Shown piece after piece: positions 7,682 to 63,690 of a stretch of 64,000 bases of DNA. The stretch spans positions 1-64,000 of the forward strand of contig JAKLFC010000010.1 in assembly GCA_022711405.1 (NCBI GenBank), written 5' to 3'. The translations under genes and the position numbers were made by a program. Every line of letters starts with the position of its first letter. Position 1 is the first letter of the stretch. The notes below the pieces were generated by a model. It was not told the origin of the DNA, did not search any database, and saw nothing but the letters and a program-made list of their open reading frames with translations. Origin of the DNA: Bacteroidota bacterium. Lineage in GTDB: Bacteria > Bacteroidota > Bacteroidia > Bacteroidales > JAGONC01.

Positions 7682-10176
7682 TGAACAAACGGGGATCAAT
7701 ACAAAGGATTCTTGTTTCCATGGCCTTCATGGCAATGGGTACAAGTTTCATTCAGGCGCAGGAGTCTGATGTCCCTGTTCCCATCAGCCCGGTCCATCCG
7801 CTGGCAGACACCGCCCGTATACAGCAATGGGTAAAACAGGCAGCCAGTCAGCTTGACGATAAGGTCTACGACAGTGCCGGTTTCTTTGCGACAAAGGCTC
7901 TTGATCTTTCCCGCCAGTCCTTCTACCGGCCGGGGAAGGCATCAGCGCTGTTCATCCTGGGACAAAGCGCTCTGGAACAGGGTCAGTATATTTTATCCAT
8001 CCGGCATTTTTTCGGTGCACTCAACGAATTCGGGATGCTCGGTGATACTTCCGGGATGGCCCTGACCAACGTTCAGATCGGGAAGATCTACAGCAAAGCG
8101 GGGCTGCACACCAAAGCCATTGAGTATTTTCTTGCAGCAGAGCAGCTTGCTATTGCCAATACCACGATTATTAATCCTCAGGAAATACGTTGGGAGAAAG
8201 CCAGCAGTTACTTCTTACTGGGGCAGTATGAAAAGGCTGCCAGTGATTATCAGGGATTACTGGATCTTTTAAAGGATCATCAGGATCCCGGCATGATGGC
8301 AGGGGTGATGAACAGGTTGATCCTTTGTTATCAGTTCACCGGACAGTACGACAGCGCCCTCGCCCTGAACGGTCAGCTGCTGGATTTTTACAGGAACTCG
8401 GGCGACAGGACCCATGAAGTACTGTCCCTGAACAATAAAGGATTCATCCTTCAAAAGATGGGTGAGTATGATGAAGCGCTTCGTTCATTTGAGGGATCCC
8501 TTCTTCTGGAGCAATCCCTTCATCCCGGTCAGCCGGAAAACACGGTCATTCTGCTGAACAAAGCCATTCTCCATCAAAATCTCGGCGACTATCCATCGTC
8601 TGTCAGGACGCTGCTGGATGCCATCCGCATCACTGAAAGAGAAGGGGATGAGGCTGAGACGGCCCTGCTGTATCACATCCTTGCGAACATCTATTTTCTG
8701 GATCAGGATCTCTACAATGCCGGCGTCTGCAACAGCAAAGCACAGGCGCTGGCTCTGAAGAACCAGGATCAGCCATTGCTGTCGGATATTTACCTTCTCG
8801 GATCCAAAATTGACGAGGCCCTTTACAATTTCGAATTTTCCTTTGAGTATTACCGGAAACATCTTGACATCAGGGATTCGCTGGCCAGGGAGGAAGAGAG
8901 AAAGCAGGCGGAGCTGGTTCAGCAGCGCTATATTGTGGAAAGGGCAGAGAGGGAGATCAGCCAGCTGCTCAGCGGACAGGAGATCAGCGATCTGGAGCTG
9001 ATCCAGCTCAGGCTGGAATCGACAACGAGGCAGCAGCAGCTGGAGATCTACCGCAAGAATGACTCGCTGCAGAAGGCGGTCATTCAGAATCAGCGGCTGG
9101 AAAGGGATAAAGCGTTGCAGGAGCTTCTGCTGGCGGAGGAGCGGCTGGCCGCTGAGCGGAAGGACAGGGAGATTGTGGACCTGAGGCAGCGGGAGGAGAT
9201 CCAGTCGCTGGAGCTTCGCCAGAAAGAGCTTGAACAGCAGCAGGATCAGCAGGAGATCGCATTGCTGACCAGGGATAAGGCATTGGGTGACCTCGCCCTC
9301 AGCAAAGCCAGGGCCCGGAATTTATTTATGCTGGGGATTTCAATGCTTGTCCTGGCCGTCCTTTATGCGGTTTACCGCGGGCTGAGGTTCGCCAGGAAAG
9401 CCAACCGTAGGCTGGCCCGTCAGAATGTGGAGATCAACCGGCAGAAAGAGGAAATCAACCGGAACCTGATCATCATCGATGAGGAAAGAAGAAAATCGGA
9501 TGACCTGCTGTTGAACATTCTTCCGGAAGAAACGGCAAACGAGTTAAAGGAGACCGGGCAATCCATTCCAAAGCACTATGAAATGGTCACAATCCTGTTC
9601 ACTGATTTCGTCGGTTTCACCTTCGTTGCCGAACGCATGTCGCCCCAGGAGCTGATCGCAGAGCTGAATCATTGCTTCCTTGAGTTTGACCGGATCATCG
9701 ATCGATACGGAGTGGAAAAGATCAAAACGATTGGCGATTCGTACATGTGCGCGGGAGGTATCCCTGTAGCCAACCGCACCAATCCGGTGGATGTGGTGTC
9801 GGCTGCGCTGGAGATCAGGGATTTTGTGACACGGACAAGGCAGGAGCGCATCAGCGCCGGAAGGGATTACTGGGAGGTGCGCATCGGGGTGAACACGGGC
9901 CCTGTGATGGCCGGTGTGGTGGGGAAGAATAAATTTGCTTACGACATCTGGGGAGATGCTGTCAACACCGCCAGCCGGATGGAATCCAGCGGCAAGTCGG
10001 GGCAGGTGAACATTTCGGGCAACACCTATGAACTCATCAGGGATCAGTTTCATTGCACTTACCGCGGCAAGGTACAGGCAAAGAACAAGGGGGAGGTGGA
10101 TATGTACTTTGTGGAGAGGAGAGAGGGGAGAGGAGAGAGGAGAGAGGAGAACGGAGAGAGGAGAGAGGAGAAATAA
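7681..10176 (+). CDS. TPR-repeat class III adenylate cyclase
   Basis: 831 residues from the ATG overlapping the previous stop codon. Order: signal peptide (~1-27); tetratricopeptide repeats (~35-400) predicted periplasmic; a long Gln/Glu-rich coiled coil (~405-540); one membrane helix (~545-565); a second short coiled coil; and a C-terminal cyclase domain (~635-800). Metal ligands are Asp642 (F-T-D-F-V-G-F) and Asp686 (I-G-D-S-Y). Substrate residues are Lys in E-K-I-K-T-I-G-D and Asp in D-I-W-G-D, which favour ATP over GTP; the transition-state Asn and Arg are present in N-T-A-S-R-M. It should turn a periplasmic or receptor-derived signal into cAMP. The last ~18 residues derive from a purine repeat and are not family sequence. 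Confidence 0.88.
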   Translation: MNKRGSIQRILVSMAFMAMGTSFIQAQESDVPVPISPVHPLADTARIQQWVKQAASQLDDKVYDSAGFFATKALDLSRQSFYRPGKASALFILGQSALEQGQYILSIRHFFGALNEFGMLGDTSGMALTNVQIGKIYSKAGLHTKAIEYFLAAEQLAIANTTIINPQEIRWEKASSYFLLGQYEKAASDYQGLLDLLKDHQDPGMMAGVMNRLILCYQFTGQYDSALALNGQLLDFYRNSGDRTHEVLSLNNKGFILQKMGEYDEALRSFEGSLLLEQSLHPGQPENTVILLNKAILHQNLGDYPSSVRTLLDAIRITEREGDEAETALLYHILANIYFLDQDLYNAGVCNSKAQALALKNQDQPLLSDIYLLGSKIDEALYNFEFSFEYYRKHLDIRDSLAREEERKQAELVQQRYIVERAEREISQLLSGQEISDLELIQLRLESTTRQQQLEIYRKNDSLQKAVIQNQRLERDKALQELLLAEERLAAERKDREIVDLRQREEIQSLELRQKELEQQQDQQEIALLTRDKALGDLALSKARARNLFMLGISMLVLAVLYAVYRGLRFARKANRRLARQNVEINRQKEEINRNLIIIDEERRKSDDLLLNILPEETANELKETGQSIPKHYEMVTILFTDFVGFTFVAERMSPQELIAELNHCFLEFDRIIDRYGVEKIKTIGDSYMCAGGIPVANRTNPVDVVSAALEIRDFVTRTRQERISAGRDYWEVRIGVNTGPVMAGVVGKNKFAYDIWGDAVNTASRMESSGKSGQVNISGNTYELIRDQFHCTYRGKVQAKNKGEVDMYFVERREGRGERREENGERREEK
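10112..10171 (+). repeat. Purine (GAGAGGAGA) repeat forming the 3' end of the cyclase gene
   Basis: About 60 bp made almost wholly of G and A on the plus strand, with short units such as GAGAGGAGA repeated imperfectly. It is read in frame as Glu/Arg/Gly residues up to the TAA at 10174-10176. Slippage here would change the length of the protein tail. Confidence 0.8.
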
Positions 10177-15033: not shown

Positions 15034-15063
15034 GGTTGACGGTTGACGGTTGGCGGTTGGCGG
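15034..15063 (+). repeat. Short tandem heptamer repeat
   Basis: Four tandem 7-bp units (GGTTGAC twice, GGTTGGC twice) plus GG, in the 241-bp gap between the S41 peptidase and FISUMP genes. Related bases recur just after (GATTGACGGTAGGCGGTT, about 15091-15108). No gene is seen in the gap. Confidence 0.75.
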
Positions 15064-21773: not shown

Positions 21774-21922
21774 GAAACGAAAATACAATCCGAAAGATAG
21801 TGAATTTTCGGGGAATGTGTGTAGGGTAGGGGCGGTTTATTGAATGGAAGGAATCCAGGAAGGAACGGCGGAAAGATAGCCGATCGCCGATAGCCGCTTG
21901 CCGATCATGCGATTTTCTTCCC

Positions 21923-22810: not shown

Positions 22811-24508
22811 ATGGATACCAGCACTAGTGCCGAGCCGGCCCGTTCCCTGAACTTCATTGAGCAGATCATCGAAAAGGACCTGTTTGAAGGGAAAAATGAA
22901 AAACGGGTACACACTCGTTTCCCTCCTGAACCCAATGGCTACCTTCATATTGGCCATGCCAAGTCGATCTGCCTGAATTTTGGCCTGGCGAAGAAATATA
23001 ACGGAAAGTGCAACCTGCGCTTCGACGACACGAATCCCACCAAGGAAGAAGAAGAATATGTGAACTCGATCATGGAGGATGTGCGGTGGCTGGGATTCGA
23101 CTGGGAAGACCGTCTTTTCTATGCTTCCGATTATTTTGAGCAGCTCTATGAGTGGGCCGAGAAGATGATCATGGAAGGGAAAGCGTATGTGGATGATCAG
23201 TCGGCAGAGGAGGTGAGCGAACAGAGGGGAACGGTGACGACGCCGGGGAAACACAGTCCTTTCCGTGACCGGACGGTGGAGGAGAATCTTGATCTGTTCA
23301 GGCGGATGCGTGCCGGTGAATTTCCGGACGGGACAAGGGTGCTGCGGGCAAAGATCGACATGGCGCATCCGAACATGCTGCTGCGCGACCCGCTGATGTA
23401 CCGCATCCTTCACGCCACCCACCACCGTACCGGCGATCAATGGTGCATCTACCCCATGTACGACTATGCCCACGGGCAATCGGATTACCTGGAGGGGATC
23501 ACGCATTCGATCTGCACGCTCGAGTTCGAGGTGCACCGTCCGCTCTACGACTGGTTCCTGGATGAGATCATCACCACCAAGTACCGGCCCCAGCAGATCG
23601 AATTTGCACGGCTGAACCTGAGCTACACGATCATGAGCAAACGAAAGCTGCTCGAGCTGGTGGAAGGCGGATACGTGAGGGGATGGGACGACCCCAGGAT
23701 GCCGACCATCTGCGGCCTGCGGCGCCGGGGTTATACACCGGAATCCATCCGCTATTTCGCCGATAAGATCGGGGTGGCCAAACGGGATAATACGATTGAC
23801 GTATCCCTTCTGGAACACAGCATCCGCGAGGATCTGAACAAAAAGGCACCACGCGTCATGGCGGTCCTCAATCCCTTGCGGGTGGTGCTCACCAATTACC
23901 CTGAGGACAAAACAGAAGATGTTGAACTGGTCAACAATCCGGAAGATGAAAACGCCGGCACCAGGAAAGTGCCTTTTTCCCGTGTTCTTTACATCGAACA
24001 GGACGACTTCATGGAAACGCCTCCGCCCAAATATTTCCGTCTGTCACCGGGCAGTGAGGTGCGGTTAAAAGGAGCGTATATTATCAAATGCGAAAAGGCC
24101 ATAAAAGATCCTGCAACCGGGAAGATCACTGAAATCCATTGCACATACGATCCGGAGACCCGCAGCGGTGGCGAACAGAGCAACCGCAAGGTGAAAAGCA
24201 CCATCCACTGGCTCCCCGAGCCATACGCCATACCGGCCGAGATCCGACTGTACGACCGCCTGTTCCTCGACGAAGACCCATCGAACCATAAAGAAAGGGA
24301 CTATAAGGAATTCCTGAATCCTGAGTCGCTGAGTACCATCAACGGATTTGTCGAGCCGTCGCTGCAGACCGCACAATCCCTTGATAAATTCCAGTTCATC
24401 AGGCTGGGATACTTTTGCGTGGATCCCGATTCTAAGCCAACACAGCTTGTTTTTAATCGTACCGTTACGTTGAAAGATTCCTGGGTCAAGCTATCCTCTA
24501 AAGAATAA
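22811..24508 (+). CDS. glnS: Glutaminyl-tRNA synthetase
   Basis: 565 residues, the usual length for bacterial GlnRS. It charges tRNA-Gln with glutamine in the cytoplasm. Class I signatures: H-I-G-H at 46-49 within [13 protein letters not shown] (the GlnRS form, as opposed to the P-S-P-T-G of GluRS) and M-S-K-R at 275-278. The anticodon-binding beta-barrel domains occupy about 345-560 ([21 protein letters not shown]). Presence of a true GlnRS means the organism need not rely on the Glu-tRNA-Gln amidotransferase route. A tRNA-Gln(CUG) gene lies 0.85 kb downstream. Its stop codon is followed at once by one of two 145-bp inverted repeats. Confidence 0.97.
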
Positions 24509-24653
24509 CCAACATTCGAACATACGAAGTTGAAGTAGAACTGAAAGGCGAAGTAGAATTGCGATTAAAAGGAAGAACTCTGAATTCATCCTTCTGATCG
24601 TAATTCGCCTTCTACTTAACCTTCTACTTCGCCTTCGTATGTTCGAATGTTGG
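24509..24653 (+). repeat. 145-bp palindromic repeat, left copy
   Basis: Starts on the base after the glnS stop codon. Its own ends are complementary (CCAACATTCGAACATACGAA at the left, the reverse complement at the right), as are inner GAAGTAGAA/TTCTACTTC blocks, so it can fold into one long hairpin. It matches the right copy (25145-25289) in reverse orientation over its whole length at roughly nine bases in ten. Confidence 0.85.
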
Positions 24654-24683
24654 ATATTCGATTGCAGTTCGTATGTTGGATAT

Positions 24684-25076
24684 TTATTGCAGATTACTCT
24701 CTTTTGCCCGAAGGTTTTTTTCCGCTGTCTGGATGCTTTTCACAAAAATGGCTATCAGTTCACTGTTCTCAGCCACCAGAGCAAGTATTACATCGTTATT
24801 ATCCAGGTCTCTATTATGGACAAGGATTCTCAGGGAAACATGACATTCCCTGAGTTCTTTCAGGACAATTTTAATTTTATGAATGAAATCTTTTGATGAT
24901 TCTGCACTCTGTGCTTCAGCGTAATTTAGAGCTGTTGATGTGGAAGATCTGCTGAGCTGATTCGCCAGTTGTGAATGAAAATACGTATTCGGAAAAGTTC
25001 TTAGAACATCCTGAATGTGAACGACGAAATCAATAAGTCGGTTTTCGATCTGGTAAGAGGTAGATTTTGGTGTCAT
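24684..25076 (-). CDS. Four-helix-bundle protein (S23/IVP family)
   Basis: 130 residues of the four-helix-bundle family named after proteins encoded in 23S rRNA intervening sequences. Features: L-I-D-F-V-V-H-I-Q-D near the N-terminus, Q-L-x-R-S-S-T-S-T-A-L-N-Y-A-E-A-Q (the conserved S-S-x-S-x-x-x-N-Y-x-E-A segment), and F-I-H-K-I-K-I-V-L-K-E-L-R-E (K-E-x-x-E/R). Related proteins form pentameric barrels that bind nucleic acid; the Avd protein of diversity-generating retroelements is one. There is no 23S rRNA or reverse transcriptase here. The gene is enclosed by two 145-bp inverted repeats, which recalls the stem-enclosed ORF of rRNA intervening sequences and suggests the whole 24509-25289 unit moved as one. 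Confidence 0.85.
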   Translation of the reverse strand: MTPKSTSYQIENRLIDFVVHIQDVLRTFPNTYFHSQLANQLSRSSTSTALNYAEAQSAESSKDFIHKIKIVLKELRECHVSLRILVHNRDLDNNDVILALVAENSELIAIFVKSIQTAEKNLRAKESNLQ

Positions 25077-25144
25077 CGTCTTTTTTTATGTTAATCCCGA
25101 AACTATCCTAAATGTGACCCTAATTGCACAACTTTTTTTAGCTC

Positions 25145-25289
25145 AGAACATACGAACATACAAAGGCGAAGTAGAAGGTTAAGTAGAAGGCGATTTACTA
25201 TCAGAAGGAAGAACGCTGAGTTTTGCCTTCTAATCGCAACTCTACTTCGCCTTTCAGTTCTACTTCAACTTCGTATGTTCGTATGTTGG
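25145..25289 (-). repeat. 145-bp palindromic repeat, right copy
   Basis: Inverted counterpart of 24509-24653 with the same length. Both copies are followed on the plus strand by ATATT. Differences are scattered substitutions, so the pair is not a fresh duplication. Confidence 0.85.
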
Positions 25290-25334
25290 ATATTAAAAAA
25301 ACCAACTCCCAGTATGAATTTTCATAAAATTAGA

Positions 25335-25355: not shown

Positions 25356-25428
25356 TGCCCGATGGTGTAATTGGCAACACGTCTGACTCTGGATCAGAAA
25401 AGTCTAGGTTCGAGCCCTAGTCGGGCAA
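25356..25428 (+). tRNA. tRNA-Gln (anticodon CUG)
   Basis: 73 nt cloverleaf: acceptor stem TGCCCGA/TCGGGCA with the U1-A72 pair typical of tRNA-Gln, D stem GTGT/ACAC, anticodon stem TCTGA/TCAGA with loop CTCTGGA (anticodon CTG, reading CAG), T stem CTAGG/CCTAG with loop TTCGAGC, discriminator A. CCA is not encoded. The DUF4136 gene that follows begins 75 bp downstream. Confidence 0.95.
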
Positions 25429-25502
25429 CTCATGCAGGGATCACCCATTTCGCGGGTAAGCTCGTTTATTCATACCATATTGTTAACCAAACTTTAATAG
25501 CC

Positions 25503-26037: not shown

Positions 26038-26166
26038 TAAAATTCCAAATACCAGGCACCAAATTCCAAACAAATTCCAGGTTCCAAATCACAAAACCAA
26101 AGACCGGTACTTGTGATTTGTTTACTGGATTTTGTTTGGAATTTGTATGTTGGAATTTGGGATTAT
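26038..26166. repeat. Dispersed AATTCCAAAT hairpin repeat, copy 1
   Basis: AAATTCCAAATACCAGGCAC…CAAATTCCAAAC on the left and TTTGTTTGGAATTTG…GGAATTTGGGA on the right pair into a long A/T-rich hairpin. Related copies are at 36597 and 42247. It fills most of the gap between the broken DUF4136 gene and the defence island and probably ends the upstream transcript. Confidence 0.75.
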
Positions 26167-40030: not shown

Positions 40031-40075
40031 AGGGGTGACAATTTGACAATTTGACAGTTTAACAATTTAATAATG
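40031..40075. repeat. CAATTTGA repeat between the two peptidase genes
   Basis: GACAATTTGACAATTTGACA followed by GTTTAACAATTTAATAATG: short imperfect tandem units. A reverse-complement relative lies at about 63574-63605. Confidence 0.65.
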
Positions 40076-42246: not shown

Positions 42247-42377
42247 TAAAATTCCAAATCCCAACATCCAAATTCCAAACAAATCTCAAGATTCAAATTC
42301 CAACGCATTGTCAAGGCTTTGGACCCTGGGATTTGGAATTTGTTTGGAATTTGGTGCCTGGGATTTGGGATTTGCGA
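42247..42377. repeat. Dispersed AATTCCAAAT hairpin repeat, copy 3
   Basis: AAAATTCCAAATCCCAACAT…ATTCCAAACAAAT on the left and GGATTTGGAATTTGTTTGG…GGGATTTGGGATTTG on the right. It fills the whole gap between two convergent genes and can form a stem in either transcript, so it is a likely bidirectional terminator. Confidence 0.78.
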
Positions 42378-63540: not shown

Positions 63541-63573
63541 TAGAAGTCATGCAGTACTTCGTAGGAGACCATT

Positions 63574-63690
63574 ATCAAATTGTTAAATTGTTAAATTGTT
63601 TGACTGTTGATCCCTCGTCACTATGTTCCTCGGGACATGCTGCTGATCCTTCGGGCTTCGCCCTCAGGACATGCTGCCCATTGCCAACTA
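63574..63690. repeat. Repeat-rich gap before the threonine aldolase gene
   Basis: AAATTGTTAAATTGTTAAAT units (63576-63600) are the reverse of the CAATTTGA repeat at 40031. They are followed by two copies of a CCTCRGGACATGCTGC unit (about 63632-63647 and 63662-63678) around a GATCCTTCGGGCTTCGCC hairpin. No gene is seen here. Confidence 0.65.

Follow-up and report, generated by a model that had tools for sequence, protein, structure and literature searches.

Results

An IVP gene between two inverted hairpin repeats separates glnS from tRNA-Gln

The window, that is, the whole 64,000-nt stretch of Bacteroidota DNA that we analysed, contains a small gene enclosed by two palindromic repeats, and this unit is located between glnS and tRNA-Gln, not inside an rRNA gene (Table 1). 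The enclosed gene encodes a 23S-rRNA intervening-sequence protein (IVP, or S23), the name used here for members of PF05635 and TIGR02436. In the repeat search, positions 24504–24651 paired with 25147–25294, giving two arms of 148 nt that are 91% complementary, are spaced 495 nt apart and are able to base-pair with the ORF between them, a gene-in-stem layout. Each repeat is also a palindrome in itself, as 24503–24580 matches 24582–24659 at 79% on the left and 25133–25214 matches 25220–25301 at 72% on the right. Folded as single-stranded DNA, the left hairpin reached −44.2 kcal/mol (z −14.3) and the right hairpin −37.8 kcal/mol (z −8.4), and no shuffled sequence equalled either of them. The repeat search and the folding against shuffles thus confirmed the first-pass annotation in its central observation, a gene between two inverted, self-folding repeats. 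Gene and repeats lie where it had placed them, while its limits of 24509–25289 and its repeat length of 145 bp were slightly tight, the repeats measuring 148–155 nt and the entire unit spanning about 24503–25301. The left repeat had been thought to begin on the base after the glnS stop codon, but the palindrome starts at about 24503 and overlaps that codon, the glnS ORF ending at 24508. At the other side of the unit, the right hairpin ends about 60 nt ahead of tRNA-Gln.

Table 1 Features of the IVP unit and its neighbours in the window
Feature	Position	Strand	Remark
glnS	22811–24508	+	left neighbour of the insertion (context)
Left palindromic hairpin repeat	24503–24659 (extent also given as 24504–24658)	.	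overlaps the glnS stop codon
18-nt extra fragment of hairpin end	24667–24684	+	reaches into the IVP stop codon
IVP/S23-family four-helix-bundle gene (PF05635, TIGR02436)	24684–25076	-	130 aa
Right palindromic hairpin repeat	25147–25294	.	inverted copy of the left repeat (91%); 70 nt upstream of the IVP start codon
tRNA-Gln (CTG)	25356–25429	+	right neighbour of the insertion (context)

The hairpin ends consist of GAATATCCAACATACGAACATACG and its complement, and the outer 24 nt or so of the left repeat hold 8-nt repeats of the AACATACG kind. This 8-nt periodicity is short and found at the ends of the window arms only, the remainder being unique palindrome. When the right hairpin (25147–25294) was compared with L086 4483–4630, the ends were alike in the genome of the window (G000) and in the same-genus genome G001, and the interior was apparently inverted, as if it had been flipped.

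Structures of S23/IVP proteins have been solved since 2006, and to our knowledge these proteins have no known function. The window IVP scores above the curated cut-offs of both families (PF05635, E 9e-14, 52 bits against a cut-off of 33.8; TIGR02436, E 6e-21, 74.8 bits against a cut-off of 24), and its AlphaFold2 monomer model (pLDDT 94.9) consists of four helices. Foldseek gave 2RLD and 2GSC as the best matches of this model and also returned the DGR protein Avd (4DWL, 8UB7). The gene is under purifying selection, with a dN/dS of 0.19 against the ortholog in G001. Inside the window unit no recognisable transposase, recombinase, nuclease or reverse transcriptase was found, nor a Y1 HuH transposase gene, the sole gene being the one that matches the IVP families. 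2GSC is an IVP of X. campestris and comprises five four-helix bundles according to its title as cited in PMC10053308. By analogy with the solved relatives 2GSC and Avd, the window IVP would be pentameric and would bind nucleic acid.

The hairpin is dispersed in the genome and its sites are variably occupied

Genome-wide counts given here derive from searches and samples. In its own genome the left hairpin occurs 16 times at full length; 2 of these copies flank the IVP gene and 14 are solo, and a few partial copies exist besides. The number is comparable in the same-genus genome G001, few copies occur in another genome of the genus, a genome of the same family has diverged copies, and none was found in 16 other genomes of the order. 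The arms of the other IVPs of the window's genome are dispersed as well.

The glnS-IVP unit is an insertion. With hairpins on both sides it is kept in G001 (92% at the amino-acid level) and in G004 (about 75%, with shorter hairpins), so that gene plus hairpins separate glnS from tRNA-Gln in three related genomes. All three carry the flanking repeats, where the first-pass annotation had allowed for a gene conserved at this locus without them. Its proposed search for empty sites was also productive, as the gap from glnS to tRNA-Gln in the outgroups G009 and G028 is empty and measures only about 110–130 bp, compared with 847 bp in the window. There is no IVP at the glnS locus of G003, a member of the same family, and a match to glnS was not found in G002.

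Further sites differ between close relatives. The solo hairpin at C26:21468 of the window's genome is missing in both same-genus relatives, G001 and G002, and shows one imperfect candidate for a target-site duplication of 9–10 nt; none was clear at the other sites compared. Another solo hairpin, at C12:246589, has as its counterpart in G001 a hairpin of only 26 nt whose ends are similar. The C14 site is occupied by an IVP in the window's genome, by a different IVP in G001 and in G002 by a solo hairpin of the same sequence only, as recombination between flanking repeats would leave. Reciprocal presence and absence was observed against G004 at etfB/etfA and at a second site, with differing IVPs after one stop codon.

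Some other arrangements were seen in the same genomes. Three near-identical hairpins lie in direct order around small genes, one of them PIN-like by eye, in G001 (C91; L088 4015–5818), and the hairpin repeat may thus bear other cargo or mediate rearrangement. The window has a second palindrome family of about 124 nt (AAATTCCAAATCCC...), present as two gene-less copies at 26041–26164 and 42249–42373. It also has gene-less arrays of period 7 or 8 at 10114–10171, 15034–15063, 21875–21903, 40036–40074 and 63571–63608, and two of these, beginning at 40036 and 63571, are similar to the AATTGTTA arms that flank the IVP at C12:163377.

IVP genes of many phyla lie between inverted repeats

The first-pass annotation had proposed a search for further repeat-gene-repeat units, and these were found both genome-wide and across phyla. 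Within the same order, 54 of 66 IVP loci (82%) are flanked by the two arms of an inverted repeat that scores at least 14, compared with 1 of 29 loci of ParE toxins, which are of similar gene size, and with 2% of mismatched controls that combine the left flank of one IVP locus with the right flank of another, even from the same genome. When only the best IVP per genome was counted, 23 of 30 genomes had it enclosed. At the stricter score of 16, loci of named genomes from many phyla were enclosed in 47 of 80 cases (59%), against 0.7% of mismatched flanks, and outside Bacteroidota the count was 30 of 42 named loci. The enclosed loci include Planctomycetota, Clostridia, Acidobacteria, Nitrospirae, Atribacterota, Proteobacteria and Patescibacteria. 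An enclosing repeat was not detectable at about 18% of the IVP loci in the order and at roughly one in three loci of the cross-phylum set.

A self-folding hairpin on each flank was considered as a general rule and rejected as a minority form, a strong palindrome being present in only 15–19% of IVP flanks; what is general is the inverted array. Judged by 23S motifs, not one of 157 IVP loci is close to 23S rRNA, and judged by Rfam none of 20 is near rRNA, so that no rRNA-resident IVP was found for comparison.

Several loci stand apart. IVP genes without an enclosing repeat occur at L056, L058, L133, L130 and L022, of which L056 and L133 are orthologous and perhaps a domesticated lineage. Two Acido-Lenti-1 RNAs lie close to an IVP in a KSB1 genome (L200, 2486–2531 and 3059–3104). 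In the phage records queried, no IVP was found.

The enclosing arms are mostly arrays of 7- or 8-nt repeats

Among the 91 arms of at least 20 nt, the period was 7 in 43 and 8 in 18, while 30 were without a clear period and none had another clear period. A broader scan found an array at 126 of 152 loci, compared with 1 of 304 shuffled flanks, and periods 7 (101), 8 (57) and 14 (29) made up 187 of the 208 arrays. The sequence of the repeat unit is different at each locus, and the period class is equal on both sides at 70 of 82 loci. Along the protein tree the period changes 16 times, against 27.2 ± 1.9 times after shuffling, a link that became weaker when similar proteins were removed (11 against 13.8 ± 1.2). 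The repeat period is thus co-inherited with the protein lineage, which hints at an action of the protein on the hairpins. Arms tend to lie near stop codons, within 15 nt for 30 of 48 adjacent 3' ends compared with 13 of 48 adjacent 5' ends, and the 5' arm is C-poor on the coding strand.

IVPs of cyanobacterial plasmids are located within operons and have arrays such as (GGGAACA)n and (TAGGGAG)n on either side. One site in related Nostoc plasmids exists in three versions, empty, with gene and arms, and with arms only, and at this site the plasmid of Nostoc sp. ATCC 53789 has the arms of the neighbouring IVP unit but not its gene (L371, about 1923–2184). The cas6/cas4 gap of type I-D CRISPR systems holds unrelated IVPs with different arms in Anabaena sp. 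90 and Pseudanabaena galeata (L276, L376), and the Dolichospermum cas6/cas4 locus, with flanks 99% identical, has no IVP and another repeat filling the gap.

Gene-less arrays accompany IVP genes

Gene-less arrays were counted in samples of 40 contigs per group from the same order, in stretches without an IVP gene and with no phylogenetic correction. Arrays with a period of 7, 8 or 14 nt numbered 26 in about 0.63 Mb of IVP-positive genomes and 2 in about 0.65 Mb of IVP-negative genomes, and were thus about 13 times commoner in the former, while arrays of other periods in the same samples numbered 27 and 22, respectively (Fisher p 0.0007). The repeats might, according to the first-pass annotation, have been widespread with no link to S23-type genes, and these counts show them linked. 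An inverted partner within 300 bp was present for only 4 of the 26 gene-less arrays. Most solo arrays are therefore incomplete as elements, and their interpretation as complete hairpin elements was rejected.

Interpretation and alternative explanations

We give roughly even chances to the interpretation of the unit as a compact mobile (selfish) element whose IVP acts on the enclosing inverted repeats, these repeats being the ends of the element. This reading is based on the observed enclosure, its recurrence across phyla, the 7- and 8-nt periodicity, the gain and loss at individual sites, the co-occurrence of gene-less arrays with IVP genes and the co-inheritance of the period. A pentameric IVP ring would recognise the repeats, either in DNA form or as single strands, and would promote their copying into new intergenic sites beside stop codons. 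Copies that include the IVP gene would arise in cis and those that lack it in trans, and an enzyme of the host or of a third party would do the cutting or copying. Solo hairpins and arrays would then be non-autonomous copies or the scars of recombination between flanking repeats, comparable to solo LTRs and to REPIN/RAYT. The main weakness of this reading is that no catalytic partner and no consistent target duplication was found, and the difference in arm sequence between loci, unlike the fixed ends of transposons, also speaks against it, as do the IVP loci that lack an enclosing repeat, the scarcity of inverted partners among gene-less arrays and the weaker link between period and protein tree once similar proteins are removed.

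An alternative that we regard as rather unlikely operates at the RNA level, as an element similar to an intervening sequence. The arms would pair in the transcript with the IVP ORF in the loop, RNase III would cut the stem and the IVP would bind it; insertion into transcribed regions would do little harm because of the cutting, and the 23S rRNA elements would be the same element in a conserved RNA. Such a view is consistent with the gene-inside-stem layout shared with rRNA intervening sequences, with the long stem formed by the window unit as RNA (z −17), with elements inside the operons nrdB/nrdA, cas6/cas4 and etfB/etfA, and with the IVPs known from 16S and 23S insertions of CPR, which occur with and without ORFs (PMC11270868). 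The arm mismatches on the coding strand, however, comprise 125 G·U against 159 A·C and 312 others, and there is no sign of selection for RNA pairing. Because the mismatches are without wobble bias, the RNA-stem reading is less favoured, and the base-paired RNA stem that the first-pass annotation had taken from the rRNA elements gains no support; the distance of all 157 loci from 23S rRNA argues in the same direction. In a variant of this alternative, TRAP-like autoregulation, the IVP pentamer would sit on its own leader, at some five repeats that each bear (U/C)AG. The arrays have a median of 5–5.6 copies and TAG or CAG is present in about 67% of the 7-nt units compared with about 26% of shuffled units, both of which would suit the variant, but the spread in copy number is wide, with a 10–90% range of 4–12.

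Less probable still, and in our view improbable, is that the IVP is a passenger, its genes merely inserting or surviving best in arrays and hairpins that slippage or an unrelated transposase makes. Slippage has been proposed for heptanucleotide repeats, as cited in PMC4679880 and PMC4692102; moreover, gene-less arrays are more numerous than genes, and some solo arrays of the window match no resident IVP unit. On the other hand, arrays of 7, 8 and 14 nt are nearly missing from the IVP-negative genomes of the order, in which other periods are equally common, and the array period tracks the IVP tree and is common to both arms. Both arms also carry the same unit in inverted orientation, an arrangement that would not result if the gene had inserted into a single array already in place.

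A reading in which one hairpin is the bidirectional terminator that follows glnS, the other is an unrelated repeat of the intergenic region and the gene lies between them by coincidence in a repeat-rich genome would fit a left hairpin between two converging genes and solo copies at gene ends, but this is a most improbable explanation, already disfavoured by an enrichment of enclosure far above the mismatched-flank controls and by the co-occurrence of arrays and IVP genes, and also at odds with the conserved gene-hairpin layout in G001 and G004 and with a right hairpin upstream of the IVP start instead of at a gene end.

Returning to the mobile element, the first-pass annotation had proposed a free-standing, mobile form of the S23 element. 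The free-standing and mobile character is supported, as units recur genome-wide and across phyla, empty sites exist and the repeats track the IVP, while descent from a 23S rRNA element is conjectural. A broader proposal, which we put forward tentatively and hold a little less probable than the mobile element itself, is that IVP/S23 genes with inverted 7/8-nt arrays form an unrecognised, phylum-spanning class of mobile elements. Its non-enzymatic pentameric ring would measure repeats of fixed length and free sequence and drive their spread; the heptamers of Nostoc, Xanthomonas and others, hitherto attributed to slippage, would be copies that lack the gene, and rRNA, with its S23 insertions, would be one landing site among others.

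Comparison with known systems

The 23S rRNA intervening sequences (S23) share with the IVP units the protein family, the inverted-repeat stem around the gene and a sporadic, apparently horizontal spread. They are sited in rRNA, whereas the units described here lie between protein genes (in the window, glnS/tRNA-Gln) and have arms of 7-/8-nt arrays or dispersed hairpins with no wobble signature. REP/REPIN sequences with their RAYT are alike in having one enclosed gene and many gene-less palindromes in the genome, mostly extragenic, and the window family likewise consists of dispersed extragenic palindromes that match the flanking repeat (16 full copies, 14 solo). However, RAYT is a Y1 HuH transposase and the IVP a four-helix bundle, and the REPIN repeat is a fixed motif, whereas IVP repeats differ per locus and are defined by their period. 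MITEs and insertion sequences are also short, dispersed inverted-repeat units with empty sites, but the IVP unit has no transposase inside, no fixed terminal repeat and no consistent target duplication. Avd of the DGR systems shares its fold with the IVP and is a nucleic-acid-binding helper; beside the window unit, with the neighbouring ORFs read by eye, no template or variable repeat and no reverse transcriptase was noticed.

Heptanucleotide tandem repeats (STRR) are a decades-old puzzle of bacterial genomics. Like IVP arms, they are intergenic tandem arrays of a 7-nt unit that lie a short way behind stop codons, often in inverted pairs, and cyanobacterial IVP genes are enclosed by such 7-nt arrays, while the window arms are 8-periodic at their ends only. 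According to PMC4692102, PMC4679880 and PMC2670836, they occur in cyanobacteria, in Xanthomonas (GGGAATC) and in Beggiatoaceae (TAACTGA). PMC4692102 describes the heptamers of Nostoc and Xanthomonas campestris as dispersed and reports no link to mobile elements; those of Xanthomonas often form inverted pairs and follow the 5' gene at a mean distance of 28 nt. For their spread in Beggiatoaceae and cyanobacteria "no mechanism is evident" according to PMC4679880, and the function of STRR is called unknown in PMC2670836. In the open literature searched we found no paper joining heptamer repeats with IVP genes; an earlier report in subscription journals is possible. The IVP protein and the heptamer repeats appear to be parts of one system, in which repeats surround the gene and are rare where it is absent. 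This suggests that the IVP gene and its repeats represent small mobile elements of a class so far overlooked, from which bacterial heptamer repeats originate, and the link provides the protein with a candidate substrate, its own flanking repeat, and the repeats with a candidate cause.
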